From positions 85,367 through 149,366 of IMG/VR virus record IMGVR_UViG_3300017992_000015: DNA of 64,000 nucleotides. The stretch is one strand, 5' to 3'. Below, in pieces: positions 28,387 through 64,000 of the stretch (within the stretch, counting starts at the first letter, position 1; each line of letters opens with the position of its first letter). Source of the stretch: a virus. The notes beneath the pieces are model-generated. The model did not search any database. It saw only the letters and a program-made list of their open reading frames with translations, and was not told the origin of the DNA. A program made the position numbers and the translations under genes.

Positions 28387-30384
28387 TTATACGATAATCT
28401 GCTGGTACACCTCGACATTACCAGCGGTGATCCCACGTTCCTGTGGTACCGGTACCACGAGACGTAGGCTCAACACAAGTCGGTTGCTCAGGAAAGCGTG
28501 TCGACGGACGACGCGAACCGTCTTGTCGATCAGCTGCCTGCCCACCCGCGGTGATCTCGTCACGCACATAGCGTTGAGTTGACCGTGCGCCTTGGCGATG
28601 ACATGATGCTGGATCTGGCCCGCGCCATGCGCTTTACCGATGGTCGACCTCAACTCATCTCGCAGCGCTCCACAGATACAATCCAGGTTGGTGACCACCG
28701 CCTCATCGTGTTGCGATGGATCACCGTACGCTGCTGTCGTCAAGCCTCGTAGAGAGCGGGCGACACCGTCGTCGGCGCTGACCACCCACACTCCAAAGTC
28801 TGTCAACATCTCGAGCTGCTCCTCCGTGAACAGCTCGTCGGTCCTTGGCAATTCGTCGATGCCGGCTAGCTCTACGCCGGCCAAACTTTGGTGCGGCGCG
28901 CAGCCGGACCGGAGTCCGGCGAGCGCTGCGCACACGTACATTCCGTCGAATGCTACCCCGCCACCAATGGCACGGTCCGGCCACACGGCACGGACGCGTT
29001 TGCTGCCATACTCTTTGGCCTTCGCGGCGACCCGCGCGGCCATTGCGTCTGAATCCAATGTCCTCCAGACTTCGACCGGGTGGGCGAAGTCAGACGGTTG
29101 GATGCCCTGGCTATCCTGGACAACCACCGCGTCCTCGTTCAGGACTGCGTGGATGACATATTCAATATACCCATTTTCGCCGACGTTGTAACGCAGGATA
29201 TCGCCCGGTTGGACCCCCAGCGACAGGAATTGCGCATTTCCCTCCTGAACGTCCACCAGGAAGGCCCCACCACCGGGCTGCTCCCGGACCACGGCCTTCA
29301 GCGGCGCCCCGTCCACGCTGTTCGAGGCGTCCGCCACAGCCACGGTAGCGCGCGCCTGCAGCGGGAGCCACGTGACACACTCCCGGCCCGTGGCGGCCTG
29401 GGAACGGTCGTCTACGAGCTGTATCACGGCCTCCTGGACTGCCGGATCGGTGGTCATCGGCACGACGCTGTAGAACCGGAACTTTCCAGCACGCCGGAGG
29501 GTCTCAACCCAGGATGCCGGATCGTCCGGGTCCGGCACGGCGATGAATTTGACAGCAGTGATATTAGAGTGCAGCTTCGCCATTTTCACACCGAACTTCA
29601 GCGGGTTGGCCGGCGACTCCTGTCCGGGGATCAGATCGAGATCCTCGCCATCCGCCAGGGCGTAGACGGTGTCTGCAAACTCGCTACGCCAGGCCTTGTA
29701 CTGGATGTAGAGGTCGGCCTCCACGATCGGGAGCGGGTGCGGCTCACCGTCGTCGATCCAACCGCTGTCGGCCAGATAGATGCCGCCGCCAACGACGACG
29801 TGGTCGGCGCGGGCGCACCAGTTGTCGACCTGGCCGTCGAACGCTTCGACCGGGATCTCGATGTCGTGCCGTACGACACAGGCGCGGAACCGCATCTTCG
29901 CAGGATCCGCGGCCCGCATCGGCGCTGGCAGGTTTCGGCTAAGAACCAGGGCGTAGTAGTCTCCGTCTTTGGCATGCCCCAGCACCTTGGCGCTGAAGTG
30001 CAGATCGTCCAGCTTGACATCGATGACGGCGCCGACAACGCAGTCTTCCATGAGGCACTCGTCCTCGGTGACCAGGCGATCGTAATGTTCCTGGTCCGGC
30101 GTGAATCCGCCGTATGCCTGGTGGATCTGCAGGTAGACGTTGTCGGCGTACAGCCGGACGCTCCGCTGGTCGATGACGCTGTTCTCGGGGCGGTACGGGT
30201 ACGGGTATTCCGTACCGTTGTCGCAGTCGTACTTGCCGATGCCGATCAGGGCACGCTCGTCTTCCACAGAATAGCGATAGAGTTGGGCGTTCCCGCCCAC
30301 GATGAGGGCCTGCTGGCGGTCGAGCATGTCGGCACCGACGGCCTTGGCCTCGCTGTGGACCAGCTCCCGTGACAAACTGAACAT
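28387..30384 (-). CDS. Contractile tail sheath protein
   Basis: A 665-residue protein. The C-terminal half carries sheath features: YSVVPMTTDPAVQEAVIQLV, then AALAGLRSGCAPHQSLAG, then LTDFGVWVVSADDGVARSLR and a final domain with strand patterns like those of other sheaths. The N-terminal half is a variable decoration-type region. Sheath proteins contract to drive the tube through the envelope, so this is a myovirus-type phage. GGGAG lies 6 bases before the ATG at 30384 (a TTG at 30387 is less likely). A palindrome GATTAT-CGT-ATAATC spans its stop codon. Confidence 0.8.
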   Translation of the reverse strand: MFSLSRELVHSEAKAVGADMLDRQQALIVGGNAQLYRYSVEDERALIGIGKYDCDNGTEYPYPYRPENSVIDQRSVRLYADNVYLQIHQAYGGFTPDQEHYDRLVTEDECLMEDCVVGAVIDVKLDDLHFSAKVLGHAKDGDYYALVLSRNLPAPMRAADPAKMRFRACVVRHDIEIPVEAFDGQVDNWCARADHVVVGGGIYLADSGWIDDGEPHPLPIVEADLYIQYKAWRSEFADTVYALADGEDLDLIPGQESPANPLKFGVKMAKLHSNITAVKFIAVPDPDDPASWVETLRRAGKFRFYSVVPMTTDPAVQEAVIQLVDDRSQAATGRECVTWLPLQARATVAVADASNSVDGAPLKAVVREQPGGGAFLVDVQEGNAQFLSLGVQPGDILRYNVGENGYIEYVIHAVLNEDAVVVQDSQGIQPSDFAHPVEVWRTLDSDAMAARVAAKAKEYGSKRVRAVWPDRAIGGGVAFDGMYVCAALAGLRSGCAPHQSLAGVELAGIDELPRTDELFTEEQLEMLTDFGVWVVSADDGVARSLRGLTTAAYGDPSQHDEAVVTNLDCICGALRDELRSTIGKAHGAGQIQHHVIAKAHGQLNAMCVTRSPRVGRQLIDKTVRVVRRHAFLSNRLVLSLRLVVPVPQERGITAGNVEVYQQIIV

Positions 30385-30396
30385 CAATCTCTCCCT

Positions 30397-47464: not shown

Positions 47465-48391
47465 CTACGCGAAGTCGGCACGTGCGAGACCGCCCGTATG
47501 ACCGATGCTTCCGCCACAGGTTTCGTAGGCGAAGAACTCGATCATGAAGGCTTCCCGCTTGATGTGCATCGTGGTGTCTTCCAGAAGATACGACTTGCCG
47601 ATGAACCGAGGGTCACCGAACATGTAGAACGTATCGTCGGGAACGAGGTCACGTTTGATCGTGACGACCCACTTGACACCCATCAGGTCGATCTCCGACC
47701 AGCCGTTCTTCAAGAAGTCGCCCGAGAGGTCGCCGCCGGCCTCGTCGTAGCCCCACTTGAGGATTTCACGGATGGTGACGTTGTTCACCAGGACCGTGTT
47801 GACCTCGAGGTGCGACGGGGTCTTCGGCATGATCTTCAGGGCTTCTTGAGTGGTGTCACGCGAGATCCCACCGAAGATGGTTTCCCACTGGATGACTCCA
47901 CTGGTCGGGACGATGGCATTCGCACCAACGAGGGCGGTGTTCACGGCGGTGAGGAACTTGGAGTCCTCTTCCGCGAGCATGTCCTTGATGGCGTTGTCCG
48001 AAAGGACTTGCCGAATATCCATCTGCCATGTTCTCAGTTCGTCAATGTCCTTGACGAAACGCGGCGTCACGATCCGGTCGAACATCACGCGGTAGCGAGG
48101 ACCGCGGATGTACACGTTGATCGGCAACGTGGCGAAAGGGATGGAGATGGCGGCCGGCGAACCGGGTTCTTTGTCCACCACGACCACGGGCTTGTCCGTG
48201 TCGACTTGACGATCGAGATCGTCGTTCGCAACCTGGACAGGCGGGATGATCTTGCGGTAGAAACCATCTTCGCGGACTCGTACGCGGGTGAATTCGTTCA
48301 CCGCGTCGAGCGCGTTCTTTTCCATCCCCGGCGTCTCGAGCTGAGCAAACAGCTCTTCGTTCAGGACTTGGACGCTAGAGGGACTGGACAT
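47465..48391 (-). CDS. Major capsid protein (HK97-type)
   Basis: A 308-residue protein. The N-terminal helix and strand (SVQVLNEELFAQLETPGMEK, then REDGFYRKIIPPVQV), the YIRGPRYRVMFDRIVTPRF segment and the long spine-helix-like WQMDIRQVLSDNAIKDMLA fit HK97-fold capsid proteins of jumbo and T4-like phages. The C-terminal part has IREILKWGYDE and WVVTIKRDLVP, with a strand-rich end. AAGGAGG lies 6 bases before the ATG at 48391. It follows protease, scaffold and decoration genes, the standard head order. Confidence 0.8.
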   Translation of the reverse strand: MSSPSSVQVLNEELFAQLETPGMEKNALDAVNEFTRVRVREDGFYRKIIPPVQVANDDLDRQVDTDKPVVVVDKEPGSPAAISIPFATLPINVYIRGPRYRVMFDRIVTPRFVKDIDELRTWQMDIRQVLSDNAIKDMLAEEDSKFLTAVNTALVGANAIVPTSGVIQWETIFGGISRDTTQEALKIMPKTPSHLEVNTVLVNNVTIREILKWGYDEAGGDLSGDFLKNGWSEIDLMGVKWVVTIKRDLVPDDTFYMFGDPRFIGKSYLLEDTTMHIKREAFMIEFFAYETCGGSIGHTGGLARADFA

Positions 48392-48477
48392 CAGTTTCCT
48401 CCTTGCAATGGTAAATCGCCGCATCCTCGCGGCGCTGGGTTGTCAGTTACGAAAACGGACTCCCTTCGAGCCTAACC

Positions 48478-50950: not shown

Positions 50951-51418
50951 TCACTGCTTAACGTACAAATTTTCCGCCGGAGCGGGTTCGGCCACCTCCT
51001 CAAGGTAGGTGGCGGCCTTTTTCAGCCGGCCGGGATCGTCTCGAAAGCACCCCAGGCCGCGATTACAGGAATTACATAGTAGTCCCCGTATTTCTGCTGT
51101 TTCGTGGTCGTGATCAACGACGAGTGGTAGTACCTTACCACCCCTGCGTTGCGTCTCTGGTTGGCCGCAGATGGCACAGACACCGCCCTGATCTGCCGCC
51201 ATTTTATCGTAATCAGCTACACGGAGCCCATATCTACGTAAATTTAAACGCCGCTCCGCTGCTAACGTACGTGTTGGGTCTGCCTGCCGCCACACTTTTT
51301 TATAAGCGTTGCGGCACTGTTTGCATTGACCCGCGTGCCCGTCTCTGCACTGTTTATTTTTCGTAAACGCCTGTAGTGGCTTGGTTTTACGGCATGTATT
51401 GCACTGTTTCTCTGTCAT
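50951..51418 (-). CDS. Endonuclease VII-like HNH protein, second copy
   Basis: A 155-residue protein built like the gene at 32001-32450: two N-terminal CxxC pairs (CNTCRKTKPL, CKQCRNAYKKVW), then CAICG and VDHDHETAEIRGLLCNSCN, the endonuclease VII HNH core. The two copies differ enough to be separate acquisitions or an old duplication. It begins 1 base after the protease stop, with GAGG inside the protease end, and a 12-pair hairpin (50928-50959) overlaps its own stop. As a free-standing HNH gene in a head operon it could be a mobile element. Confidence 0.8.
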   Translation of the reverse strand: MTEKQCNTCRKTKPLQAFTKNKQCRDGHAGQCKQCRNAYKKVWRQADPTRTLAAERRLNLRRYGLRVADYDKMAADQGGVCAICGQPETQRRGGKVLPLVVDHDHETAEIRGLLCNSCNRGLGCFRDDPGRLKKAATYLEEVAEPAPAENLYVKQ

Positions 51419-51419
51419 C

Positions 51420-52928
51420 TTACCTCACAAAGTTTGATCTGACGGCCATCTCCTGCATGAATGCGGCGTCTGGATCAGCCGCATGGGCTTGGAGGAAGCC
51501 AAGCTGGTACAAGGCGTACTGCTTGGCCAGCTCCTCAGCACTGTCGACCATAGCTATCTTGGTCATCGACCGACGGGGGTCAGGCGCCTTCGGCTGCCGC
51601 AAAACGGACAGTTGGAGCCGCTCGATGACGCGGTCGCGAGCCAGCGACCATTCGCCGGCGTGTTTCAGCACCCAATGCCTGACGCGTTTTGGCGCTGGAC
51701 CACCGGGCAAATAGGGGTTCTGACGGAGGTCCTCTTCGAGCCTCGGATCAGATGCCAGACGATTGTACACGCCTGGCAAGCGGTCCGCAACGGCGTCCGC
51801 TGCGGCTGCTGTTTTGGTGTTGTGTTCGCCGGTCAGCATGGCGATGAACGAATCAACAGGAAGCATGCACTTCTCTGCTGCCAGTGCTGTCACGACGTGG
51901 GCCAGCTTGTACGGACCCTTGCGGACGTCAGGAGCGTCGATCCGGAGCGGTTGCACAACCGGCTGGCACGCACGATCTTGCGCAATGGGGCTCCCGTCGA
52001 CCTCCAGTGCGTTCTCTTGCTGGATCAGGTAGTTTGCCACCTTGAGTTGTCCAACGACACGCGGGTCACTCCAGGGGCCGTCTGTGAGGATCCAGAGAGG
52101 CGGGGTAACCCCAAGTCGCTCCGCAAGCGCTGCAGCACTTTGCTCAGATCCGTAGGTGTCTGCGGCGGCTTTGAGCATTTCTTGGTAGTCTTCTGCTGCA
52201 GCACATTTACCAAGCGTGTAAGCGATGCGATCTGCCGGGCGAAAGACCTTCGAGATGTCGAAGAAGCATGGATCTGGGTTGTCGACATGGAGCGTATGTC
52301 CGTCATCGAAAGTCTTGGCGAGGTTATCTCTGCATCCGCCATATTTGCACATCTCCGGTCCACAGTATTCTTTGCGGCTCTTGGCATGGTTGCCACAGCC
52401 AGAACAGACGTCATGGCTGACACGGCAGGCCATCGACACCGGGATGTCTTCGCCTCGTGCCAGTTTCTCGAGCTCTTCGTCAGCGACAAGCCCGCCGTTG
52501 CGATCGGCAGCTTCCTTGGTGCCGTTGAGCGCAACGATCAGCTCCACGCGCCGCATATCGCCATTATACGCGGAAGCTTTGATGATACCACGTCCCTTGG
52601 AGACGTCCTTGTTCTGATGATCGCGGTACCAGCGGGCGAATTTCTGGAAAGTCGGGTGATATGCCTGCAAGACCTCCTCACGGAAGCCGTCGCCGTTGCG
52701 GTTGGCTCCGTAGTACTCTTGGGCACCGACGGCTAGCAAGTGGACAGGGACCTCCCCAGGGCCAAGCTGCATGCTGGCCACCTTGTCGATGAACTGCACC
52801 GACGCGCGTTTCACGAACTCATCCATATCAGATCCACGGAGCCTGCCGTCGCGGCCCGTCTTGATCTGCTGTGCCACCGGAGCGTGAAAGTCGTACGATC
52901 CAGGAGTCAAAAGTTTCGTGAGTGCCAT
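51420..52928 (-). CDS. Probable prohead protease with Cys-rich insert
   Basis: A 502-residue protein. The segment VPVHLLAVGAQEYYGANRNG, then a histidine in WYRDHQNKD and, further on, IKASAYNGDMRRVELIV fit the pattern of serine-type prohead proteases, with candidate His and Ser. Residues ~170-205 form a dense Cys cluster (CRVSHDVCSGCG, then YCGPEMCKYGGC) that probably binds zinc, unusual for this family. The C-terminal half is helical. Its position upstream of the scaffold and capsid genes fits. The catalytic assignment is by eye and should be tested. AGGA is 7 bases before the ATG. Confidence 0.6.
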   Translation of the reverse strand: MALTKLLTPGSYDFHAPVAQQIKTGRDGRLRGSDMDEFVKRASVQFIDKVASMQLGPGEVPVHLLAVGAQEYYGANRNGDGFREEVLQAYHPTFQKFARWYRDHQNKDVSKGRGIIKASAYNGDMRRVELIVALNGTKEAADRNGGLVADEELEKLARGEDIPVSMACRVSHDVCSGCGNHAKSRKEYCGPEMCKYGGCRDNLAKTFDDGHTLHVDNPDPCFFDISKVFRPADRIAYTLGKCAAAEDYQEMLKAAADTYGSEQSAAALAERLGVTPPLWILTDGPWSDPRVVGQLKVANYLIQQENALEVDGSPIAQDRACQPVVQPLRIDAPDVRKGPYKLAHVVTALAAEKCMLPVDSFIAMLTGEHNTKTAAAADAVADRLPGVYNRLASDPRLEEDLRQNPYLPGGPAPKRVRHWVLKHAGEWSLARDRVIERLQLSVLRQPKAPDPRRSMTKIAMVDSAEELAKQYALYQLGFLQAHAADPDAAFMQEMAVRSNFVR

Positions 52929-54331: not shown

Positions 54332-55993
54332 TTACGGATTGGGCTTGGGCTTTCTGAGCGCGTCGAGCTGCTTCTTCTGCTCAGCAAGTTGCTTCTTCTG
54401 CTCAGTAATTAGATCTCGATTCTCCCGATCCTGTCCCGGCGTCAAGTGCTGGAACGACGGGCGCATCGCGCTGCTGACGTCAGACGGCAGCACCGGCATT
54501 TGCGCACCGGTCGGCAGCGGGTTCGGCGGGCCGAGCTCGCGGGACACACCCATACGGCCGACGTTGGCCAGCTGTTGCGGCATGTCGCGGTCGGCGACCT
54601 GTCCCTCGATCTTGAGCGCCTGCTCGACGTCGAACGGGTCGATCGCCGATGCCTGCTCCAGGTACTTGCGGATCAGGCCCTGGGCCATCACCCGGTGCTG
54701 CATGGCGCGCGGCGCGACCTCGGCCAGGTGGTTGTAGGCGTCGATCACGTCGGAGTGGTCGTAGCCGCTGATGACCGGGTCGGCGGACATCATCTCGTGG
54801 ATCATGGCCTGGGCACGGATGGCTCGCAGGTGGTCTTCGTGGCCCGGATCGGCAATCGACTTGAGGTGCTTCTGGATCAGCTCCTCGCGCGTCTCCGGGG
54901 CGTACTTCTCAGCAAGACCCTTTGCGGTACCGCCCAACGCGCCAGCCATTGTCAGACCCATGAACGACGCAGACTTAGTCTGCGATTGATTGTCCCATAC
55001 TGAGCCTGTGATCACGTTTGGACGGTCCGGTGCAAAAGGGCGCAGAGTCTCCGCGCGCTTCTCCGGGAGAGCGGCTTCGAAGTCGGCCAGGGCCTTCTTG
55101 GTGTCGTTGAAGCGGGCGATCGCGTCGACAGCGGACTTGATCAGCGAGTAGGGCGCCTCGTCCCAGTCGACATCGTGGGTCACCTGGGATGGTTGGGCGT
55201 ACGCCTGCTTGAACATCACGGTGGACTTCTCGACCAGGCCGCGGCCCGTCTGTCCGTAGCGTGCTCCGGCATTGGCCCAGACCTCGTTGATCGGGCGGCT
55301 GTCAAACCGGCGGAAGTAGTTGGCCAGCTTCTCGACGCCGTTCGTCACGTCGTACGCCGATTTGATCGCAGCGTCCTTGCGCTGCTGGTGCTCGCGCCGG
55401 AGATCGTGCATGGCCGACAGGGCCTTCTTCTCCTGGCGGTACGGGTATGCCGGGTACGCTGCCTCTTTTTCCTCTGCCTCTTCTTCGGCAGCTTCTTCTT
55501 CGGCGGACTCCCTTTCGACCTCCACTTCGCCGTCTTCGATCTCAACTTCGATGACGCCGCCTCCTGGCGCCTTGGTCTCGATCTCCAGCTCTTCGGCGGA
55601 CTTCACCAGCGACACAGTGCGCGCAGCCTCTGCCCGGCGCTTGAGCCAGCCAGCAGGCGACATGTTGTAGTCGTCCGAGATGGACACACCGTGGGCTTCC
55701 TCGGCAGCCGTCTTGACCTCCGACGGGAACATCCGTTCAAGGATCTTCCTACCGTCAGCCAGCGGGAACGCCGCAGCCTTTTCGGTGAGCGTCTCGTGTT
55801 CGCGGATATGGCCGAGGCTTCGGCCGTTGTTGAACGCCCGCACCATGAGATTGACATGGCCAGCCGGCAGTTTTGCGGCGGTCGCAACCTTAACAATCGC
55901 ATCGTCCGGATTCGTTCCGGAGTTGGTCAAATCTGTGACCTTTGCGAGAGCGTTGCTGATCCGCTGCTCACTCTCCTTCGTGAGCCTTTGCAT
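54332..55993 (-). CDS. Large probable virion protein with acidic linker
   Basis: A 553-residue protein, not recognised. Residues ~1-130 are helical, followed by a Glu-rich linker (EEEAAEEEAEEKEAA). A long helical region follows, with a short hydrophobic stretch near ~350 (SFMGLTMAGALGGTAKG), and the protein ends in a Lys/Gln coiled coil (EQKKQLAEQKKQLDALRK). I start it at the ATG at 55993, where GGAG is 9 bases away; a TTG at 56020 would overlap the upstream gene by 53 bases. It is probably an internal head protein. Confidence 0.6.
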   Translation of the reverse strand: MQRLTKESEQRISNALAKVTDLTNSGTNPDDAIVKVATAAKLPAGHVNLMVRAFNNGRSLGHIREHETLTEKAAAFPLADGRKILERMFPSEVKTAAEEAHGVSISDDYNMSPAGWLKRRAEAARTVSLVKSAEELEIETKAPGGGVIEVEIEDGEVEVERESAEEEAAEEEAEEKEAAYPAYPYRQEKKALSAMHDLRREHQQRKDAAIKSAYDVTNGVEKLANYFRRFDSRPINEVWANAGARYGQTGRGLVEKSTVMFKQAYAQPSQVTHDVDWDEAPYSLIKSAVDAIARFNDTKKALADFEAALPEKRAETLRPFAPDRPNVITGSVWDNQSQTKSASFMGLTMAGALGGTAKGLAEKYAPETREELIQKHLKSIADPGHEDHLRAIRAQAMIHEMMSADPVISGYDHSDVIDAYNHLAEVAPRAMQHRVMAQGLIRKYLEQASAIDPFDVEQALKIEGQVADRDMPQQLANVGRMGVSRELGPPNPLPTGAQMPVLPSDVSSAMRPSFQHLTPGQDRENRDLITEQKKQLAEQKKQLDALRKPKPNP

Positions 55994-56933
55994 TTTGGTC
56001 ATCTCCGTCTGGGTATCCAATGTCGGTGGTAAGATATTCCAAGCCTTCCGGCTCGATGCCCATCGAGAGCATCATCAACTCGTGTGATCGCAGGGTCATA
56101 CCATCCTTCTCGAACTCGGTGGAACGACCAATCATCTTCGGCGAGACGCCTTCGATGTACTTGATCCACGGGATGCAGTTCTGCATCGCCTGGACGTTCT
56201 CAGCCATCAGCTCGCTGCCGCCACCCGCCGCACCAGCCTGTTGCTCGAGTGCGGCCATGTTGTGGAACATGTTCAGGATGCCTTCGGCAGTGTAGCCGTT
56301 GATCTGGATGGTACGCGCGGCCACGTTGGCCTTCACTTTGATCACTTCCTTCGTGTCGTCGCCCCAATGCGCTGAGACCTGACTTGGGGTCTCCGGGCGC
56401 GTCGGCGCGTTGAACTTGTAGATAAAGGCGTCCAAGACTAGCGGGCCGCAGTGGTATCCAAACAGCTTCCACAGCAAATCGTATTGCCGCTCCGCAAGGC
56501 CGGTCTGCACAGCTTTGCCGACAATGATGTGGGTGATCAAGCCTGGATGATCAATACGACTCATCACATCGAAGAAGGCCTCCTCGTAGCGCTTGATCAC
56601 ATCCACGTCTTCGTGGATCTTCTGACCAATGCTTTCGAAGGACTCACGGGCCAACAGGCGAGCCTCGAGCTCCCATCGAGTCTCAGTGGGGGTTTCGTTG
56701 GCATCGTAAATCAAATAGGCCGAAAACAGCACGGGATCGGCATCCAGCGCCGCGAGCCGGTCTTCGTCCGTCTCACAGCGGTCCAGGAGTCGGCGGAACT
56801 TCGTCAGCTCCCTTACGATGCTGTCATCCCGTCCAGCGATGAGGCGCGAGCCGTTGGCGAGTTCGCCAGCCCGCTGCCACCGCCAGTCTGCGGGACGCCT
56901 CTTGTTATCGGGTCTGTTTACCAGAATCGACAT
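55968..56933 (-). CDS. Unknown protein, 321 residues, with possible HTH
   Basis: Not recognised. A basic, Arg/Trp-rich start (NKRRPADWRWQRAGE) and a segment near residue ~115 (ESFESIGQKIHEDVDVIKRY) that could form a helix-turn-helix, reminiscent of small terminase or sigma-type DNA-binding domains. The rest is helical. GAGGTG precedes the ATG, and the AT-rich palindrome (56944-56969) fills the gap before it. A packaging or portal-associated role is possible but not shown. Confidence 0.5.
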   Translation of the reverse strand: MSILVNRPDNKRRPADWRWQRAGELANGSRLIAGRDDSIVRELTKFRRLLDRCETDEDRLAALDADPVLFSAYLIYDANETPTETRWELEARLLARESFESIGQKIHEDVDVIKRYEEAFFDVMSRIDHPGLITHIIVGKAVQTGLAERQYDLLWKLFGYHCGPLVLDAFIYKFNAPTRPETPSQVSAHWGDDTKEVIKVKANVAARTIQINGYTAEGILNMFHNMAALEQQAGAAGGGSELMAENVQAMQNCIPWIKYIEGVSPKMIGRSTEFEKDGMTLRSHELMMLSMGIEPEGLEYLTTDIGYPDGDDQNAKAHEGE

Positions 56934-56969: not shown

Positions 56970-57427
56970 TAGTCCTCGTTGCCTACTTCCCCGGTGATCG
57001 CAACTTCCCAGTTGGTATCCTGGCCGTCATCGTCGACGGTCAGCTGCAGGTAGACCGCGCGGTCCGGGACCGAGTACGAGCCCACCCGATTGCGGTATGC
57101 GTACCCCGTGGGGCTGTAGAACTCCAGCGATTCGCCCGCGGCCTTGGCCGGGAGCTGGTCGTCGGGGATGATCTTGGCCGTGTTGAAGCAGATCGGGTCG
57201 ATTTCTGCCGAGTGCGACGCTTCGGGGCCCAGCTCGCAGACAGCCCGATCGAGCAGCCTGACGCTGTAGCCTACCTGGACCGGGTCATCGGCGACCTGGC
57301 AGACTTGTAGACGCTTGATCGAACCCTCTTGCGGGTACCCAATACGGAAGCACATCGAGGTCTCACCGGCTGGCATGACCAGTGCTTCGCCGTTCGCGAC
57401 GGACAGTTCTCTCTTGTAGATATGCAT
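56969..57427 (-). CDS. Probable virion protein, 152 residues
   Basis: Strand-rich (HIYKRELSVANGEALVMPAG, later YSVPDRAVYLQLTVDDDGQD) with a small beta-sandwich look. AAGGT lies 6 bases before the ATG. Not recognised; between two large probable head proteins, so a head-surface or joining role is plausible. Confidence 0.6.
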   Translation of the reverse strand: MHIYKRELSVANGEALVMPAGETSMCFRIGYPQEGSIKRLQVCQVADDPVQVGYSVRLLDRAVCELGPEASHSAEIDPICFNTAKIIPDDQLPAKAAGESLEFYSPTGYAYRNRVGSYSVPDRAVYLQLTVDDDGQDTNWEVAITGEVGNED

Positions 57428-57441
57428 GTGGCTACCTTTGC

Positions 57442-59814
57442 TTAGACCTCACCCTCGCCGAAGTCGACGTCGACTCCCTCGTCCGGGTAGGGCTCGATTG
57501 TTTTCTGCTTGAGTTCCAGGGTCACGTCACCCAGGCTCTCGAACGAGTTGCGCATGGCATCTTCCAGCTCGGGCAGATTGTTGCTGCCGTATCTGTCCTC
57601 AAATTTGTCGTGATGCCAGTACATGTTGAACAGCAGCCGGCCCATGCTGTCCAGACCCTTCATCAGGTCCGGCAGGTGCCGATCGATCAGAGTCTCGTTC
57701 TGCGAGCCCTTGAGCAGGTTCGACAGGAGCGAAGTGTCGAGCACTTCCTTCTGGCCTGTCTGGGCTGCTTCCATGAGTTGCTGCCCCATCATCGGCTCGG
57801 GCGGCTCGGCCATCTGCCCGCGCTGGCGGCGTCCGCCACGCAGGTCGTCGACCGGGTACTCCTCTTCCATGCCGTAGTTGGTCGGCAGGCCGGAGCCCAT
57901 GATGAAGTCGGTGGACTCGTACTGTTCCGGGATCGCCGGAGCCGACGGGGCGCTGGAGAGCAGATCGTACGGCTGGGCGTACTTGATCCGGTACTTCACG
58001 CCTCGCTGCAGCTGGGCGTTCTTCAACACGTCCTTAGCGGTCTTCTCGGCGCATCCGTAGTCGCGGACGAGCGAGATGAGCGCAGCCTTGGGCGTCGAGT
58101 GCCTGCCGTTGACGATCGCTTCGGTGCCGTTGTTGAAGACTTCCAGCGCGCTGGACGTCTTGTAGATGCCCAGCTGGAGGTCGACGTGGTCGCCTGGCAC
58201 AAGCGCGGGCGGGTCGCTCGAGTCCGCGCACGGGTTGCAGCACCCGGGGATGCTGTCGCCGTCCTCGTCCTTCGGCGGGTCGGCAATCTTCAGTGCCTTG
58301 GCGCCGGGCGGTACGAGCAGCTCGTCCAACCGCGACACGAGCTTGTGGCCCTTGATGCGGTTCAGCACAATCTGTTCGACGCTGCTGGTGTTGTCCCACT
58401 CGTAGTGGCCGTGGCTCGGCGACGGGATCAGCTTGTCGGCCCGACGCCGGACGTTACCGTAATGACGCCAGCGGACCTTGTACCGCTTTTCCTCGCCCTC
58501 GGAGGGCAGAGTGTCCTCGACCTCGAACACGCTCGTACCGTGTCCGGTCGTGGTGAGCAGCGCATAGGTCGCTCCGACCTGCAGGCTGTCCGCGTTCGGC
58601 AGTCCGTTGAACCAGTCGTTGTAGTCGCTACCGGAGTACTTCTCGATGACGTAGATGTCGCCGGGGTGCACTTCGGTATAGGCCTTCTTGTCGCCGCCGA
58701 CCCGTACCAGGACGCCGTTCGGCTTGCGGCCACGCGGGCCGTGCGGGGCGTGGATGTACAGGCACTTCTCGAAGGAGTCCGGCTTGCAGAGGACGTCGTA
58801 GTGTCCAGTCTCGTCCGGGTTCTGGAGCGTCATCGGCTCCTGGACCTTGTAGACCTTCGACTTGTCGTAGCGGTCGTCCTTGATGTAGACGCCGTCGCGT
58901 TGCAGTTGCTCGGCCTGCTTTTCGGTCAGCCCCCTGCGGCATGCTTTCGTGCCGTTGTATGTCCAAATGCGGAGGCTGCCAGTGTTGATCGGATCGGCTT
59001 CTTTCGCTTGGTCCATCGCGGACTTCTCGCGGAAGATGCTACCACCGACTTGGATGTCTCGTTTCTTGCGCGGCGGTTCCGTCGGACAGACGGTGCTGGC
59101 GGTCTTGGCAACGCCGATCGCTTCGTCGACAAGCTCCCGACCGTAGTTTTCGACGATCGGGCGAGCCAGCTGCGGCGTGGAGTCAAGGACCTGGAGGAAC
59201 CGCGTAGCGACCGCGGCACTGGCCTTGATCAGCTCCGGCGCTTTCGGCTCACGCTTAGCGACGCGACCGAGCGCGTGCATGAGGCCGGGCATACCGGCGT
59301 CGAGCCATTGATCCGACGCGTACTTGTTCGGTGATTCGCGGAACTGGTCGAGCGATGGGCGACTGACGCCGAGCATGCTCAGGTTGCGTGTGACCTCTTC
59401 GCCGATGACGTTCGGCTTGCGGTTCAGCACGTAGTTGACCCAGTTCTCTTTGAGGGGAACGAACGTGTCGCTCTCCTTGAGGTACATGAGCTCGTGCCCG
59501 CGGAGTTCGCCGTTCAGGAAGAACACCGGAGCATAAATGAGTTGCGGCCCCACCTTGAAGCCAAAGACACCGACAGCCCGATCGTTGTCCTCATTTTTCT
59601 CGAGAAGCTGGAAGCCCAGCATGAAGTCGAGCAGCTGTGGAGCCTTGTCTTTGAGGTAGGCGTGTGCCAAGTTGCTGAAGGCACTCTCGAAGCTCTGGCT
59701 GTCGCCGGATTCTCCACCCATGTCCGCCTGTTTGAGAAAGTCGGAGCGTTGGAGCGAGCGGCAGACACCGCGCCAGTAGCTTACCCCACCCATCTGTCGT
59801 AGGTTTGTACTCAT
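57442..59814 (-). CDS. Large probable virion protein, 790 residues
   Basis: Not recognised. Residues ~40-260 are helical with aromatic patches (DFMLGFQLLEKNEDNDRAVG), ~260-490 are strand-rich with charged loops (GVLVRVGGDKKAYTEVHPGD, then YIHAPHGPRGRKPNG), and ~500-700 include a CCNPCADS cluster. The protein ends in helices and an acidic tail. It is the first gene of the head module. Its size and place suggest a portal-associated or internal head protein, but no portal signature is visible. AGGA lies 9 bases before the ATG. Confidence 0.55.
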   Translation of the reverse strand: MSTNLRQMGGVSYWRGVCRSLQRSDFLKQADMGGESGDSQSFESAFSNLAHAYLKDKAPQLLDFMLGFQLLEKNEDNDRAVGVFGFKVGPQLIYAPVFFLNGELRGHELMYLKESDTFVPLKENWVNYVLNRKPNVIGEEVTRNLSMLGVSRPSLDQFRESPNKYASDQWLDAGMPGLMHALGRVAKREPKAPELIKASAAVATRFLQVLDSTPQLARPIVENYGRELVDEAIGVAKTASTVCPTEPPRKKRDIQVGGSIFREKSAMDQAKEADPINTGSLRIWTYNGTKACRRGLTEKQAEQLQRDGVYIKDDRYDKSKVYKVQEPMTLQNPDETGHYDVLCKPDSFEKCLYIHAPHGPRGRKPNGVLVRVGGDKKAYTEVHPGDIYVIEKYSGSDYNDWFNGLPNADSLQVGATYALLTTTGHGTSVFEVEDTLPSEGEEKRYKVRWRHYGNVRRRADKLIPSPSHGHYEWDNTSSVEQIVLNRIKGHKLVSRLDELLVPPGAKALKIADPPKDEDGDSIPGCCNPCADSSDPPALVPGDHVDLQLGIYKTSSALEVFNNGTEAIVNGRHSTPKAALISLVRDYGCAEKTAKDVLKNAQLQRGVKYRIKYAQPYDLLSSAPSAPAIPEQYESTDFIMGSGLPTNYGMEEEYPVDDLRGGRRQRGQMAEPPEPMMGQQLMEAAQTGQKEVLDTSLLSNLLKGSQNETLIDRHLPDLMKGLDSMGRLLFNMYWHHDKFEDRYGSNNLPELEDAMRNSFESLGDVTLELKQKTIEPYPDEGVDVDFGEGEV

Positions 59815-59904
59815 GTGCAGACGTCCTTGTCAATGGGAGCGACCCAGGTTCCGTCCTAAGATATGCTTTATATCCTACTGGATCTGACTGCAATACTGCA
59901 ATGT

Positions 59905-61791
59905 CTAGGTTTTTGGAGGCTTCAGTACGCTCTGAGGCCAGTTCTTGGCAAAATCTTCTCCGGCGGCCAGCGACGGTACGAAGCTGGTGCTCTTTGTGTC
60001 CGAGACGGCACCGCGATGGACCGCGGACATCAGGTTCTTCTTCTGATCACTTCCTAGGAAGCGGACGAGCGGGTCCGGGTCGTGTCCGACCGAAGCCTGC
60101 GCCCGGACCATGTACGGTCGAAAAGGCGGAGCTTCGTCGTGGACATCGATGTTCTTGACACCGAACTCGTCCAAAACTGGTAGCATTGACGGCTTAATCT
60201 GGGTGCCGACCGTGTAGTGCAGCACCGGGCTCTCCAGGTACTTGCCGACGCCCAGTTTGGGGGCTACGGAACGCATCCCGTCACGGGGTTGCCACCCGGC
60301 CTCGAGCTGCTGGTACGGGATCACATCGCCGGGGACGTGATCGTCGTCCTCGTCGGTCATCTCGACGTGGTCGATCAGGCTCCGAGACAGCAGTTCGATG
60401 TTCCTGCGATTGGCATACATCTTACCGGCACGGTACGCATCGGCAAAGATGTCGATGAAGTAGCGCCGACCCTCGCCGATGCCCTTGTGCTTGACGATTT
60501 CGGACGGATTCGGGATGCCGTCGCTGATCACGTCGCCGGCTTCGACGTTGTCGCCACGCTTCACCTTGAGGCCGAACCCGGGCAAAACGAAGTGCCGCTC
60601 GCCGCTGATGGTCACGTACTGGCCACCGGCGGGCGCTTCTGTGATATCGGTCACTTTTCCGTCCATTTGGGCGTGCGCAGCGCCACCTTTGAACGTTTTT
60701 GGCACCTGCACGAGCTGATTGACGTGCTGGAAGCCCGTCACGGACTGTGTTTCGCCCTTCACGCCGCCGGAGTGCTTCGAACTCAGGGCACCCTGTGTGA
60801 GCTTCTCAGAGAGCGCCTGTGCGGCTGCGATGCCAACCATGTCTCCAACCGGGGGCAGGTCTCCGCGCTCGCGTACGCCCACGTCACGGGCGTATACGCC
60901 GCTTGACGGGCCGGCGACCGTCGGAGAACGCACAAGGATGCGTTCCATGCCCTGATCGGCCAAATCTTCAAGGATTTTGGGCGTCAGAACTGTATTTCGC
61001 TTGTATCCGCCCATATCTGAGGCCAAAAGTGCCCCTTCGTTGTCCGGATCGTCGGTTTTGACCGGCAAACCACGCAAAACACGGCTCTTTTTGGCCGTTT
61101 TGTCCTCTTCAGCGTCGTCGGCGAGCACCATGAGCCGATGAGTGAGCTGATTCAGCTGTTTCGAGAAGTATCCGACGTCCATCGTGGCAAATTTCTCGTC
61201 GATGATGCCTTTCCGGGCTCCGTACGTGCCCGCCCAGTACGAAGCGGGGTCGAGACCCTCGCCGTAGCTCTGTTGCACCGGAAACGGGATCGTGTGGTCG
61301 TGGTGGTCGACGTAGAGCATGTCGCCGCCGATCAAACGCTTCAGGGTCATTTTGTTGCCTCGGGCACCCGATGCGACCTGGTCGGCGAGCGGGTTGCCCA
61401 GCTCTTTGGCGTCAGCGTACACGCCATCGAGCAGCTTCTCGTGCTCGGCGGCGGTCGCCTCGATGATCTTGGCTTCCTTCTTGTCCTCGTCCCAGTTGTC
61501 CTTCGACATGATCTCGCGGATGCGCCGGTTCAGGCGCTGGCGAGACGCCAGTACGGACTTGGTCGGACGCAGGTGCTCGATGCTGAACGACTGACCGCCG
61601 GTTGTATACGCCGCGTCACGGCCGACATCGGCGAGCTTCTTCGAGATCTCGCGGTACTTGTCCGGATCCTTCTCTGCGATCTCACGGAGCAACTTCTTGA
61701 CGCCCTTACCGTCCAAGGTGCGTGTGTAGTCACGCATCTCTTTCGGCAGGGCCTCGTTGACCAGCAGTTGTCCAATGGTCGTCTTAAGCAT
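59905..61791 (-). CDS. rpoC: RNA polymerase beta-prime subunit, C-terminal half
   Basis: A 628-residue protein matching the second half of bacterial beta-prime. It opens TTIGQLLVNEALPKEMRD, equivalent to the segment after the active site. SGARGNKMTLKRLIGGDMLY and EGLDPASYWAGTYGARKGII correspond to the F-loop and bridge-helix region, and VGIAAAQALSEKLTQGALSS with HSGG is the trigger-loop/switch-type region (VGIIAAQSIGEPGTQLT in bacteria). A C-terminal KVKRGDNVEAGDVISDG fits the end of beta-prime. The zinc-binding Cys cluster of host beta-prime is absent. It starts 1084 bases after the N-terminal half, with a small gene overlapping its start by 8 bases. Confidence 0.9.
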   Translation of the reverse strand: MLKTTIGQLLVNEALPKEMRDYTRTLDGKGVKKLLREIAEKDPDKYREISKKLADVGRDAAYTTGGQSFSIEHLRPTKSVLASRQRLNRRIREIMSKDNWDEDKKEAKIIEATAAEHEKLLDGVYADAKELGNPLADQVASGARGNKMTLKRLIGGDMLYVDHHDHTIPFPVQQSYGEGLDPASYWAGTYGARKGIIDEKFATMDVGYFSKQLNQLTHRLMVLADDAEEDKTAKKSRVLRGLPVKTDDPDNEGALLASDMGGYKRNTVLTPKILEDLADQGMERILVRSPTVAGPSSGVYARDVGVRERGDLPPVGDMVGIAAAQALSEKLTQGALSSKHSGGVKGETQSVTGFQHVNQLVQVPKTFKGGAAHAQMDGKVTDITEAPAGGQYVTISGERHFVLPGFGLKVKRGDNVEAGDVISDGIPNPSEIVKHKGIGEGRRYFIDIFADAYRAGKMYANRRNIELLSRSLIDHVEMTDEDDDHVPGDVIPYQQLEAGWQPRDGMRSVAPKLGVGKYLESPVLHYTVGTQIKPSMLPVLDEFGVKNIDVHDEAPPFRPYMVRAQASVGHDPDPLVRFLGSDQKKNLMSAVHRGAVSDTKSTSFVPSLAAGEDFAKNWPQSVLKPPKT

Positions 61792-62071
61792 GCGGAGGAT
61801 CCTCGCCAGGCTTCCAGAGGCGGCTGCCCTTAGGCGGCGCCGCGAAGGAATCCTTGTCGATATGATCGCTGATGACGGTCTCGTTGATGCCCAACTGAGA
61901 GAGCATCTTGTTCATGACCTCGTCGCCGTCGCCGCGATCGATGATGTACTGGTGCCCTGGAGTCGGTTCCAGGGCCACAGCAATGACGCCGTTGATTGGG
62001 CACCGCAGTACAACGCGAGTCGCTTCGATGCGCTGCGGATTGCCCAACTTGTTGTGGAGTTCAACAATCAT
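61784..62071 (-). CDS. Unknown small protein, 95 residues
   Basis: Strand-rich (IVELHNKLGNPQRIEATRVV, then GHQYIIDRGDGDEVMNKML), charged, ending in a Pro-rich tail. Its stop overlaps the start of the beta-prime C-terminal gene, so the two are coupled. Not recognised; a polymerase-associated factor is possible by position. Confidence 0.6.
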   Translation of the reverse strand: MIVELHNKLGNPQRIEATRVVLRCPINGVIAVALEPTPGHQYIIDRGDGDEVMNKMLSQLGINETVISDHIDKDSFAAPPKGSRLWKPGEDPPHA

Positions 62072-62073
62072 GA

Positions 62074-62760
62074 TTACCTACGGTGCAGGCTTCGGGACAT
62101 GGCGGAGATCGCATCGAGCCGCAACTGCGACGCGTCCTCTCGCTCCCCGTCGACTGGACCGCGGAACATCGACAACGCATCGGCTCCTGCTTTCTCAGGC
62201 CCGGACGGGGCTTCAATCGGGCTGACGGGCGCGTTCCCGCCGATACCCGGCAACGCCGGTCCGCCGCCGCCACCCTCGGGCGGGGCACCTTCGGCGCCGG
62301 CTCCGAGCGGCGCGCTCTGCGGCATCTGGCCTTGAGCGACCATCGCCACAGCACCGTCGTCCAGAATGTCGGGAGGCATGTCGATGCCCGTGTGCTTCAT
62401 CATGTGGGTCAAGAGCTTCCGAACGCGGGAGAGCTCCATGTAGATGAAGGTAGGATCGATCTTGGGCTTTCCACCGGCTCCTGGGGCTCCACCAGCTGCA
62501 GGCGCAGGGGCAGCGGCTGGCGGTGCTCCCGCCATTGCAGCCGGGTCCATCGGCGGGGCGGCTCCTGCCATCGCCGGGTCCATCGGCGGTGCTCCGCCTC
62601 CTGCCATCGGATCCATCGGCGGAGCTCCTCCGGGCGGCATCGCTCCCGGCGGCATTCCGCCCGCCGCCGGATCACCTGGTACGAAAGCCTTTTTCTCGTT
62701 CTCACCGGCCAACCTCCATTCGGCAAGATCGAAAAGCATCGGGTTCATTTCGTGGGACAT
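62074..62760 (-). CDS. Pro/Ala/Gly/Met-rich protein
   Basis: A 228-residue low-complexity protein with repeats of APPMDP and MPPG in the first third, a short helical middle (TFIYMELSRVRKLLTHMMKH) and a Gly/Pro-rich end. Probably largely disordered. GGAG lies 8 bases before the ATG. It sits between the two beta-prime halves, followed by the 95-residue gene, and could be a linker-like or assembly factor for the split polymerase, or an unrelated insertion. Confidence 0.6.
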   Translation of the reverse strand: MSHEMNPMLFDLAEWRLAGENEKKAFVPGDPAAGGMPPGAMPPGGAPPMDPMAGGGAPPMDPAMAGAAPPMDPAAMAGAPPAAAPAPAAGGAPGAGGKPKIDPTFIYMELSRVRKLLTHMMKHTGIDMPPDILDDGAVAMVAQGQMPQSAPLGAGAEGAPPEGGGGGPALPGIGGNAPVSPIEAPSGPEKAGADALSMFRGPVDGEREDASQLRLDAISAMSRSLHRR

Positions 62761-62831
62761 TAGTGCGACTCCGTTCGTTGTTCATGTGACACTACTAGTA
62801 GCTTACAGGGGTTGCGTTGATTCTACAATCC

Positions 62832-62852
62832 AAAACGACGACGCAGTCGTCG
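62832..62852 (-). terminator. Possible terminator after the beta-prime N-terminal gene
   Basis: On the minus strand CGACGAC, loop TGC, GTCGTCG, followed by TTTT. It lies 23 bases beyond the stop of the N-terminal half and before the Pro/Ala-rich gene, so transcription of the C-terminal half may depend on read-through or a nearby promoter. Confidence 0.5.
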
Positions 62853-62874
62853 CGCGAATTTTTTGCTAGTGTTG

Positions 62875-64000
62875 CTAGCGTCCTTCGCGAATCTCGATTC
62901 GTTGACCTACGCCAATCTCTCCGCGCTTGTAAGCCTTGATCGCGTCGAGCTTCGAGTTGAAGACTCGGACGGGCTTCTTCTTGTCGTTCCGCGTCGTCGC
63001 CTCCCACAATCCACCGACGTACTCCATCGACGGGGCGTGGATGACTTCGAAGTCGCTGACCGCGAACAGGTTCTTCGACGGCAGGAGTTTCTCCTGCGCC
63101 TCCTGCACGGCTTCGTCGGTCGACGGCAGGTGAAACTGCATGGCGTCGCCGTCAAAGTCGGCATTGAAGCCTTTCACGATCAGTGGCGGAATCTGCAAGG
63201 TGTTTGCGGACGTGAGTTGTGGCCAGAACGCCATGACCCCGAACCGGTGCAACACCGGGGCTCGGTTGATCACGACAGGACGGGATTTCATCTCGGATTG
63301 CAGCTCACGCATAGCTGTATCGGTACGGTCTTTGACGGCCTCCATCGCCTTGATCTTGCTCATGCCGCGGCGGACCAGTCGACGGACGACGAACGGCTGA
63401 TACAGCGTCCACGCCTTGTCGGCCGGGATTCCTACCTGGTCCATGTCGAGGTTGGGATCTGGCGAAATAGCAGCACGGCCCACGAGATCCACGGTGGACC
63501 CGAGAAGCTTGCGCTGCACGGTGCCGAACTTCGGGCTGGTCCCGAAGACGTGCTTCAGGATGCCCTTGACCGGTTGTGATTTGTTCTCTGGGCGAATGGG
63601 ATCGCCAAGGCCTGTGACACCCTTGAAGGCGTCGTAGACCGCTAGCCGCTCGTCGGACACGTCATCCGTCATGCGGGTGAGTTGTTTCAGGTTGTCGTTC
63701 GCGTCGAACAGCTCCTTGTAGAGGAAGTTCGCGTCGTCGACGAGCCGGCCACCGGACCCCATCATGGAGACCGGGCGGAACATCGGCGGCAGCACCGGGA
63801 CTCGATCCATCATCCAGTCCTTCGGGTGCTGCCCGAGCTTCTTCGCTGACTTGAGGAACTGCAGTCGACGGATCGCCTTGTCGCGGTAGGTCTTCTTACC
63901 GCTGCTCATCTCGGCGCGGGCTCGCTCGATCTCCTTGTCGAGGTTGATGTCCTCGAGCACTTTGGCGAGCCCCTTGGGGCCAGTGAGTCCTTCGCGCCCT
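62875..64000 (-). CDS. rpoC: RNA polymerase beta-prime subunit, N-terminal part (partial)
   Basis: The frame continues past the window edge (GLTGPKGLAKVLEDINLDKE at the edge), so this is the C-terminal 374 residues of a longer protein; a GTG at 63960 is not the start. WMMDRVPVLPPMFRP and NRAPVLHRFGVMAFWPQL are classic beta-prime segments. NADFDGDAM (63139-63165) is the universally conserved active-site motif whose three Asp residues hold the catalytic magnesium. It stops soon afterwards, where host beta-prime continues; the remainder is encoded at 59905-61791. The activity should be intact. The beta subunit is not in this window. Confidence 0.95.
   Translation of the reverse strand, partial: GREGLTGPKGLAKVLEDINLDKEIERARAEMSSGKKTYRDKAIRRLQFLKSAKKLGQHPKDWMMDRVPVLPPMFRPVSMMGSGGRLVDDANFLYKELFDANDNLKQLTRMTDDVSDERLAVYDAFKGVTGLGDPIRPENKSQPVKGILKHVFGTSPKFGTVQRKLLGSTVDLVGRAAISPDPNLDMDQVGIPADKAWTLYQPFVVRRLVRRGMSKIKAMEAVKDRTDTAMRELQSEMKSRPVVINRAPVLHRFGVMAFWPQLTSANTLQIPPLIVKGFNADFDGDAMQFHLPSTDEAVQEAQEKLLPSKNLFAVSDFEVIHAPSMEYVGGLWEATTRNDKKKPVRVFNSKLDAIKAYKRGEIGVGQRIEIREGR

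Follow-up and report, generated by a model that had tools for sequence, protein, structure and literature searches.

We analyzed a 64,000-nucleotide stretch of phage DNA (the window), which comprises bases 85367-149366 of the linear, 161,817-base IMG/VR record IMGVR_UViG_3300017992_000015 (G000), and which carries genes for the two large subunits of a bacterial-type RNA polymerase (RNAP). An initial annotation of the window had described a phage-encoded, bacterial-type beta-prime subunit split into two genes, an outline that is borne out by Pfam and PDB matches and by the phage clade described below. All window features given here lie on the minus strand. The NADFDGDAM catalytic aspartate motif of the beta-prime double-psi barrel is intact in the sequence at 63139-63165, as annotated, and the C-terminal half (C-half) is indeed a separate gene of 628 amino acids (59905-61791; Pfam, PDB and an alignment of 28 sequences), with the bridge helix (ARKG...) at 61147-61224 by alignment to E. 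coli and the trigger loop at 60757-60834 by both alignments. Between the halves are the predicted Pro/Ala-rich gene, gp228 (62074-62760), and small gene, gp95 (61784-62071), both recovered as iterated profile families. The supposed N-terminal beta-prime gene was only half recognized: the window does contain this region (62875-64000, which starts at the clamp coil and ends shortly after the catalytic barrel), but it is the last quarter of a 1457-amino acid gene that leaves the window at its right end as a single open reading frame (L003:5242-9615, minus strand, equal to G000:148241-152614). When we inspected the flanking sequence for a beta subunit, as the annotation had advised, we found beta fused upstream in the same frame; the fusion had been missed because its beta part lies outside the window.

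Homology and active center of the two chains

Along the fusion, Pfam matches run from beta (Rpb2_6, E = 2e-54; Rpb2_3, E = 5e-7) into beta-prime (Rpb1_1, below cut-off; Rpb1_2, E = 2e-26), and the C-half matches Rpb1_5 (E = 2e-20). Beta-prime chains in the PDB were matched by the C-half (E = 8e-37) and by the N-half (E = 4e-57), the latter searched, and modeled below, with L009, a 99-100% identical record from another sample that stood in for the window fusion. Because of these Pfam and PDB matches (E = 2e-20 to 4e-57), we conclude that the RNAP homology of both genes is not due to chance. Aligned to E. coli, the fusion covers beta from near its N-terminus through its C-terminus, then a short connector and the N-terminal region of beta-prime; it ends near E. 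coli beta-prime residue 568, and the C-half opens at the next alignment column (~568/569). A partial structural model (L009 fusion residues 560-1457; predicted local distance difference test [pLDDT] 73.8, predicted template modeling score [pTM] only 0.49) had matches of both kinds, the best beta-prime chain being cyanobacterial (9dvs_D, E = 2e-29) and the best beta chain 8i23_C (E = 1e-27). The features of a bacterial-type two-barrel RNAP are thus present, namely beta and beta-prime domains, DxDxD, two basic beta residues, bridge helix and trigger loop; the description of the sequence as close to the bacterial form was not supported, identity to E. coli being only 25.2% across 1992 alignment columns. 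The best PHROG matches of the polymerase halves, PHROG 24349 and 25354, are families without annotation; their lengths (1191 and 1216) point to beta and beta-prime as two complete, separate proteins.

We compared active-center residues with E. coli (E. coli numbering), taking their roles to be those usually assigned. The initial annotation had allowed for the loss of key residues outside the motifs visible to it; these residues are retained in both halves, with equivalents of beta E813, D814, K1065, K1073 and R1106 and of beta-prime R425, D460, D462, D464, R780, T790, Q929 and H936 (alignment to E. coli). The D460/D462/D464 equivalents are present in 7/7 phage sequences compared, and bridge-helix R193, T203 and G207 and trigger-loop H340 are invariant across the 28 aligned sequences; the equivalent of trigger-loop Arg933 is Ser. 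At 12 positions that we take to form the rifampicin pocket, only two residues are identical to those of E. coli, which suggests that the polymerase is probably insensitive to this drug.

The gene order fusion, gp228, gp95, C-half, gp790 is kept among relatives. Iterated profile families detected gp228 in 72/79 related loci, gp95 in 58/79 and gp790 in 62/79, although some of the 79 stretches end before the gene sought, and gp228 and gp95 sit between the halves; gp228 is of low complexity, yet its matches fall at the expected place. The gp95 gene begins 3 bases past the final base of gp228, and its end overlaps the start of the C-half by 8 bases. In the gp228 protein, two stretches are conserved, one N-terminal and one central and helix-like. 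AlphaFold2 predicts gp95 to be small and beta-rich, with a single helix (pLDDT 86.9, pTM 0.64). Neither protein matched Pfam or PHROGs, and relatives of neither were found in stretches resembling that of phage Arash (below). We rejected gp95 as omega or another known subunit, since its model had no PDB fold match at E ≤ 0.001. Going by gene position, gp95 and gp228 are candidate polymerase partners or loading factors.

The terminator-like hairpin noted in the initial annotation exists, with a T-rich tail, at 62835-62853 between the fusion and gp228 (terminator-like site scan). It folds no better than shuffled sequences (z = -0.74; 49/200 shuffles equally good), the scan found 11 such sites in 57300-64000 (6.5 ± 2.5 expected), and no hairpin was visible by eye in the corresponding gap of four near relatives (L010, L011, L023, L086). 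Thus, we rejected it as a meaningful terminator and consider it probably incidental.

Layouts and phylogeny among relatives

Two named phages, Salmonella phage Arash and Vibrio phage D69, have the same fusion (~32% identical to the window fusion; Gp206 in Arash, 1525 amino acids), a separate C-half and the same head-gene neighbors. We collected further relatives by scanning viral contigs with the fusion, from which the best 80 of 86 relatives gave 79 distinct loci, and by further scans, which yielded 27 Arash-like loci and, as the best 80 of 302, loci encoding single chains. Single-sequence queries for the single-chain relatives returned only themselves and one 99% copy, and an alignment query was needed; among 10 stretches retrieved from viral contigs with the C-half alone as the query, the one relative was the near-identical record. 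The resulting 193 stretches, which include same-contig repeats, Arash, D69 and one contig of a metagenome-assembled genome (MAG), were reduced to 134 by shared 12-mers; this sample was drawn with queries from this polymerase family and is uninformative on the frequency of other layouts. The MAG contig (L096; JAFQXE010000002.1, Thermoguttaceae) is a 183-kb contig in a bacterial bin that carries the phage fusion at 48% identity; it is probably a phage contig, and possibly hints at a host in the Planctomycetota.

In all 79 loci, one frame matches both beta and the N-terminal part of beta-prime, with beta spread over more than one frame in eight; the C-half occupies a separate frame in 73, the same frame in three (L060, L071, L078), and was not seen in three. 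As a control, we examined E. coli and L097-L175, the best-matching bacterial loci among the matches listed; both genes were seen in 77/80 of these, and 0/77 had a frame spanning beta and beta-prime. The two-chain layout accounts for 70 of the 134 non-redundant loci, of which 63 have the fusion and a separate C-half and seven have beta interrupted or cut (four with beta interrupted or its start missing, and three more, L058, L059 and L072, with beta interrupted). In another nine, the stretch with the fusion includes no C-half or only its beginning. Beta and beta-prime form one chain in 37/134 (L060/L209, L204, L078, L071, most of L210-L248, L258, L260 and L264), with lengths from 1,903 (contig-cut) to 3,010 amino acids, mostly 2,030-2,130. 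The chain crosses the break site and is then cut by the contig in three loci, and two are otherwise cut. An extra break within beta-prime was found in 13/134: in eight it lies 100-130 residues in (C-half seen in six), and the remaining five break or end there, with the rest wholly or partly missing (the L189 contig continues for 6.6 kb without it). In L187-L202, an Arash-like subclade, this second break ~100-130 residues into beta-prime results in three polypeptides.

The position of the break that follows the catalytic barrel is constant: fusion frames end at profile (HMM) positions 1470-1473 and C-half frames begin at 1461-1478. We considered that the halves might be rejoined after translation or transcription, by a split intein or a trans-spliced intron, to give one functional chain. 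Such a step would fit with the single-chain relatives (37/134) and with the Hint and/or LAGLIDADG domains in the polymerase genes of some relatives, but there is no intein-sized extra sequence at the break, the halves abut in the alignment to E. coli with two unrelated genes between them, and the table of Arash proteins has the two as separate entries, although peptides alone are no proof (PMC10585845). Thus, we rejected a split intein at the break, where there is no sequence for it, and consider rejoining in any form highly improbable. The LAGLIDADG domains lie within the polymerase genes L075:16818-22295, L068:11066-16033 and L260:6947-15976, and appear intein-like, with L075 also having Hint domains. 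In L043 and L023, an excess of more than 300 residues has no counterpart in Pfam, and in L062 there is a stretch resembling a 2H phosphoesterase.

We built trees from cellular bacterial and phage sequences, without archaea, nucleocytoplasmic large DNA viruses or the published multimeric-RNAP-encoding Caudovirales (mReC) phages. Among other named phages, Cobetia phage Carin-5 has beta and beta-prime separate and whole, and Rhizobium RHph_TM30 and Vibrio Va2 have beta-prime as one gene. Under a site-heterogeneous model, the family (16 rows) stands apart from bacteria (seven rows) and Carin-5 with support of 100/99, and the window clade has 100/100. In a tree with more single chains, the family is separated from bacteria and Carin-5 with 100/100, and the split rows cluster with single-chain L071 (100/99) inside a set of single chains, of which L209 and L210 are outermost; the branch joining the rest is weak (82/72). 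If the root is on the bacterial side, a single chain was ancestral and was broken afterwards, one time. FastTree with 89 rows grouped the split rows and L071 at 0.996, with Shimodaira-Hasegawa (SH) support for the whole family relative to Carin-5 of only 0.62; with a smaller row set this branch had SH support of 1.0. We are unsure of the position of L071 inside the split clade, since it is a long branch, and a split clade without it was only marginally rejected (approximately-unbiased p [p-AU] of 0.0375, and 0.102 with an earlier row set).

These trees bear on the idea that the locus is a recent host-derived or decaying fragment, an outcome that the initial annotation had asked a tree to check. 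Nothing favors this idea except the break into two genes; the phage clade lies apart from bacteria (100/99 or 100/100), the break is at one conserved site, and the catalytic residues are retained. Thus, we rejected a recent host fragment and give virtually no credence to decay. As a tentative history, which we hold with slightly less than even confidence, a single widespread phage lineage would have converted the bacterial polymerase to a head-packaged enzyme, first joining beta and beta-prime into a chain of ~2,050 amino acids that held both barrels, the clamp, the bridge helix and the trigger loop; one break at a fixed point after the barrel would have followed in the window and Arash branch, and then more breaks, inteins and one possible re-fusion (L071). 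The enzyme would work with no alpha or omega, and gp95 and gp228 would serve in loading or assembly in their own lineage. If this is true, the single chains would be nature's closest approach to a single-chain bacterial RNA polymerase.

Head-gene context and evidence from virions

Window genes past the C-half follow the order of Arash genes: Gp218, Gp219 (weak), Gp220, Gp222 and the capsid gene Gp226. The gene after the C-half, gp790 (57442-59814), is in one family with Arash Gp218, which the proteome study detected in virions (PMC10585845); the Gp218 profile matches it at E = 2e-118, and this profile family also covers 14/30 Arash-like stretches. It is followed by relatives of Gp219, a hypothetical protein beside Gp218 (55968-56933; shared profile family, single BLAST weak at E = 0.007), of structural protein Gp220 (54332-56020; profile E = 2e-27, single BLAST E = 0.002) and of structural protein Gp222 (51420-52928; BLAST, 38% over 216 amino acids, E = 2e-33). 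A probable major capsid protein (47465-48424) is similar to Arash Gp226, the annotated major capsid protein (29.5% over 312 amino acids, E = 3e-39), and a tail sheath protein, indicating a contractile tail, is encoded at 28387-30387 (PHROG 279, E = 7e-7). The portal gene is at the other end of the record (L008:823-2820, minus strand; profile E = 4e-100). Of 32 non-redundant loci of the single-chain clade with at least 3 kb present, 29 have a portal relative upstream of the polymerase.

Other genes of the record include an endonuclease VII amid the head genes (50951-51418; PHROG 2633, E = 4e-39), a putative papain-like cysteine protease-like sequence, judged by eye, upstream of the polymerase (L003:13505-14404, minus strand), and an NAD-dependent DNA ligase with adenylation, OB and BRCT domains (L005:9338-11617, minus strand).

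In the Arash virion proteome, the fusion Gp206 was the most detected protein, with 3516 spectra and 128 unique peptides, followed among those compared here by the capsid Gp226 (1333 spectra), the C-half Gp216 (1210), the portal Gp204 (877) and the sigma factor Gp10 (467), in counts that are not length-corrected (PMC10585845). Based on these data and the gene context, we consider it probable that the window encodes a simplified, virion-packaged, near-complete bacterial-type RNAP core of two polypeptides that serves early transcription. Chain 1 (1457 amino acids) comprises beta, the short connector and beta-prime through the barrel, with both double-psi barrels of the active site in one chain, and chain 2 (628 amino acids) the remaining beta-prime from the bridge helix and trigger loop onward; the fusion would take over part of the assembly role that alpha (and omega) have in bacteria. 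The enzyme would be loaded into the virion, enter with the DNA and transcribe early genes without the host polymerase, and we propose that the polymerase genes lie within the head cluster because of this loading. Across the family, head packaging and early transcription may likewise apply, judging from gene context and the Arash proteome. The 280-amino acid sigma70-like protein encoded in the record (region 4, E = 4e-10; region 2, E = 2e-7) may direct the polymerase to promoters. We found no match to alpha (PF01000, PF01193) or omega (PF01192) in the record, with controls positive in 13, 13 and 14 of 14, nor to PF01000 in any of the 22 relatives searched, which is consistent with a core that could work independently of these subunits.

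The same two-chain polymerase might instead be made after infection for middle or late genes, its presence in Arash particles being carry-over. The Arash authors themselves consider abundant enzymes possible carry-over from infection, and the 116 proteins detected in virions include ribonucleotide reductases and RNA ligases (PMC10585845); moreover, only one RNA_pol_Rpb1_2 protein is found in the whole record, with no sign of a phiKZ-type pair of virion and non-virion enzymes. However, the spectra of the fusion exceed those of the capsid, again not length-corrected, and the polymerase sits with portal and head genes in Arash, in the window and in most single-chain loci, while the separate-subunit polymerase of Carin-5 adjoins a sigma factor and DNA polymerase I. 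Thus, we regard synthesis for middle or late genes as rather unlikely. A catalytically dead structural head protein would also account for abundance in Arash particles, but retention of the catalytic residues of both barrels and of the trigger-loop His across divergent members makes this very improbable.

Several observations weigh against a virion-packaged, sigma-directed core enzyme. For this phage, the evidence comes from sequence, and presence in the virion was shown by others in Arash, whose fusion is only distantly similar; the record is linear and possibly incomplete, so that gene absences are weak. The first beta-prime zinc ribbon is missing in 7/7 phage sequences compared, and the window and L011 have also lost the second zinc cluster, which Arash, D69 and three single-chain relatives retain. 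The case for sigma is affected most: sigma region 2 was found in 0/10 window-clade relatives, compared to 6/6 Arash-like and 4/6 single-chain records, region 4 was weak in 7/13 near relatives and above cut-off in one, the sigma of this record had no match in the 13 near relatives (in a search without a positive control), and it is barely similar to the Arash virion sigma Gp10 (best E = 7). Furthermore, the polymerase has a short flap tip and lacks the R275 equivalent in its clamp helices, features that we take to matter for sigma, although the clamp-helix region itself is present. Thus, we consider the layout and kinship well supported and virion use moderately supported; sigma dependence, which the sequence supports weakly, is the weakest step.

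Comparison with known polymerases

Phages with such polymerases are known. The mReC phages (Weinheimer and Aylward 2020; PMC7481178) are likewise tailed and metagenomic, with IMG/VR among the sources, and have alignable bacterial-type beta and beta-prime that form a clade apart from bacteria and lie near phage hallmark genes. The paper treats beta and beta-prime as subunits, and its main text does not use the word "split" and uses "fused" and "fusion" once each, for crAssphage (PMC7481178). Under its search criteria (profile matches of at least 800 amino acids, NADxDGD), one fused protein could count twice. Of the mReC markers, which include a terminase of PF03237/VOG01069, PF03237 was not found in the record (controls positive in 6/14), and capsid PF07068 was found in 0/1 for the record and 0/22 relatives, with no control genome matching either; in the mReC set, terminase Pfam matches are given for only 17/31 (PMC7481178). 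The terminase large subunit of the record is of the gpA ATPase family (PF05876; L005:16456-18339, plus strand, equal to G000:61823-63706), distant from the head genes. It is likely that the phages here and the published mReC set are the same.

In annotations of the closest named phages, the Arash gene is called "subunit beta" and that of D69 hypothetical, and the main text on Arash has no word beginning with "fus" (PMC10585845). Vibrio D181 and D148 resemble Arash in layout, but in both a homing endonuclease divides the fusion into two pieces. We found no report of a fusion of beta with the N-terminal part of beta-prime plus a separate C-half in open-license PubMed Central (PMC) papers, a search whose scope did not extend to the mReC supplements. 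Thus, within this literature, what appears to be new is the chain layout.

The RNAPs of phiKZ/AR9-type jumbo phages are similar in having a virion form, a beta-prime broken after the catalytic barrel and no alpha or omega, but differ in that beta is also split, nothing is joined, at least 4-5 chains are made, no sigma was found and there are usually two enzymes per phage (PMC7598289, PMC7824862). The initial annotation rightly set the window apart from this type, which has beta in two or three chains, beta-prime in two and none joined: here beta is whole and joined to beta-prime. The crAss-like phi14:2 gp66 and P23-45 gp96/gp64 also have both barrels in one chain, and virion RNAPs are among them; the paper on these enzymes assigns the diverse single-subunit RNAPs of phages to a second clade that shows little sequence similarity to cellular enzymes, and P23-45 gp96 lacks a clamp (PMC10770324).

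In the RpoC1-RpoC2 arrangement of cyanobacteria and plastids, beta-prime is likewise broken after the catalytic barrel, but beta is separate. Cyanobacterial gamma aligns to query residue 430/437 at gamma 555 and continues to 625, such that its break lies ~60-70 residues beyond that of the phage, and a transfer from cyanobacteria argued from the split site is thus not supported. In the bacterial RpoB-RpoC fusions of Helicobacter and Wolbachia, beta is joined to a full-length beta-prime in a cellular enzyme with alpha and omega present; the joining is shared, but the phage beta-prime stops after the barrel. Fusion of the two large subunits is reported to have arisen repeatedly during evolution (PMC7281927).

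These results have a practical consequence for surveys, since counts of "beta" and "beta-prime" by profile matches can miss that both lie in one protein. Arash offers a cultured system for purifying and testing a virion-borne polymerase that can be aligned to the bacterial one. The boundaries of the large subunits of a bacterial-type polymerase can be redrawn with the active center kept, and this phage family provides natural single-chain and two-chain cores that apparently have no need of alpha.

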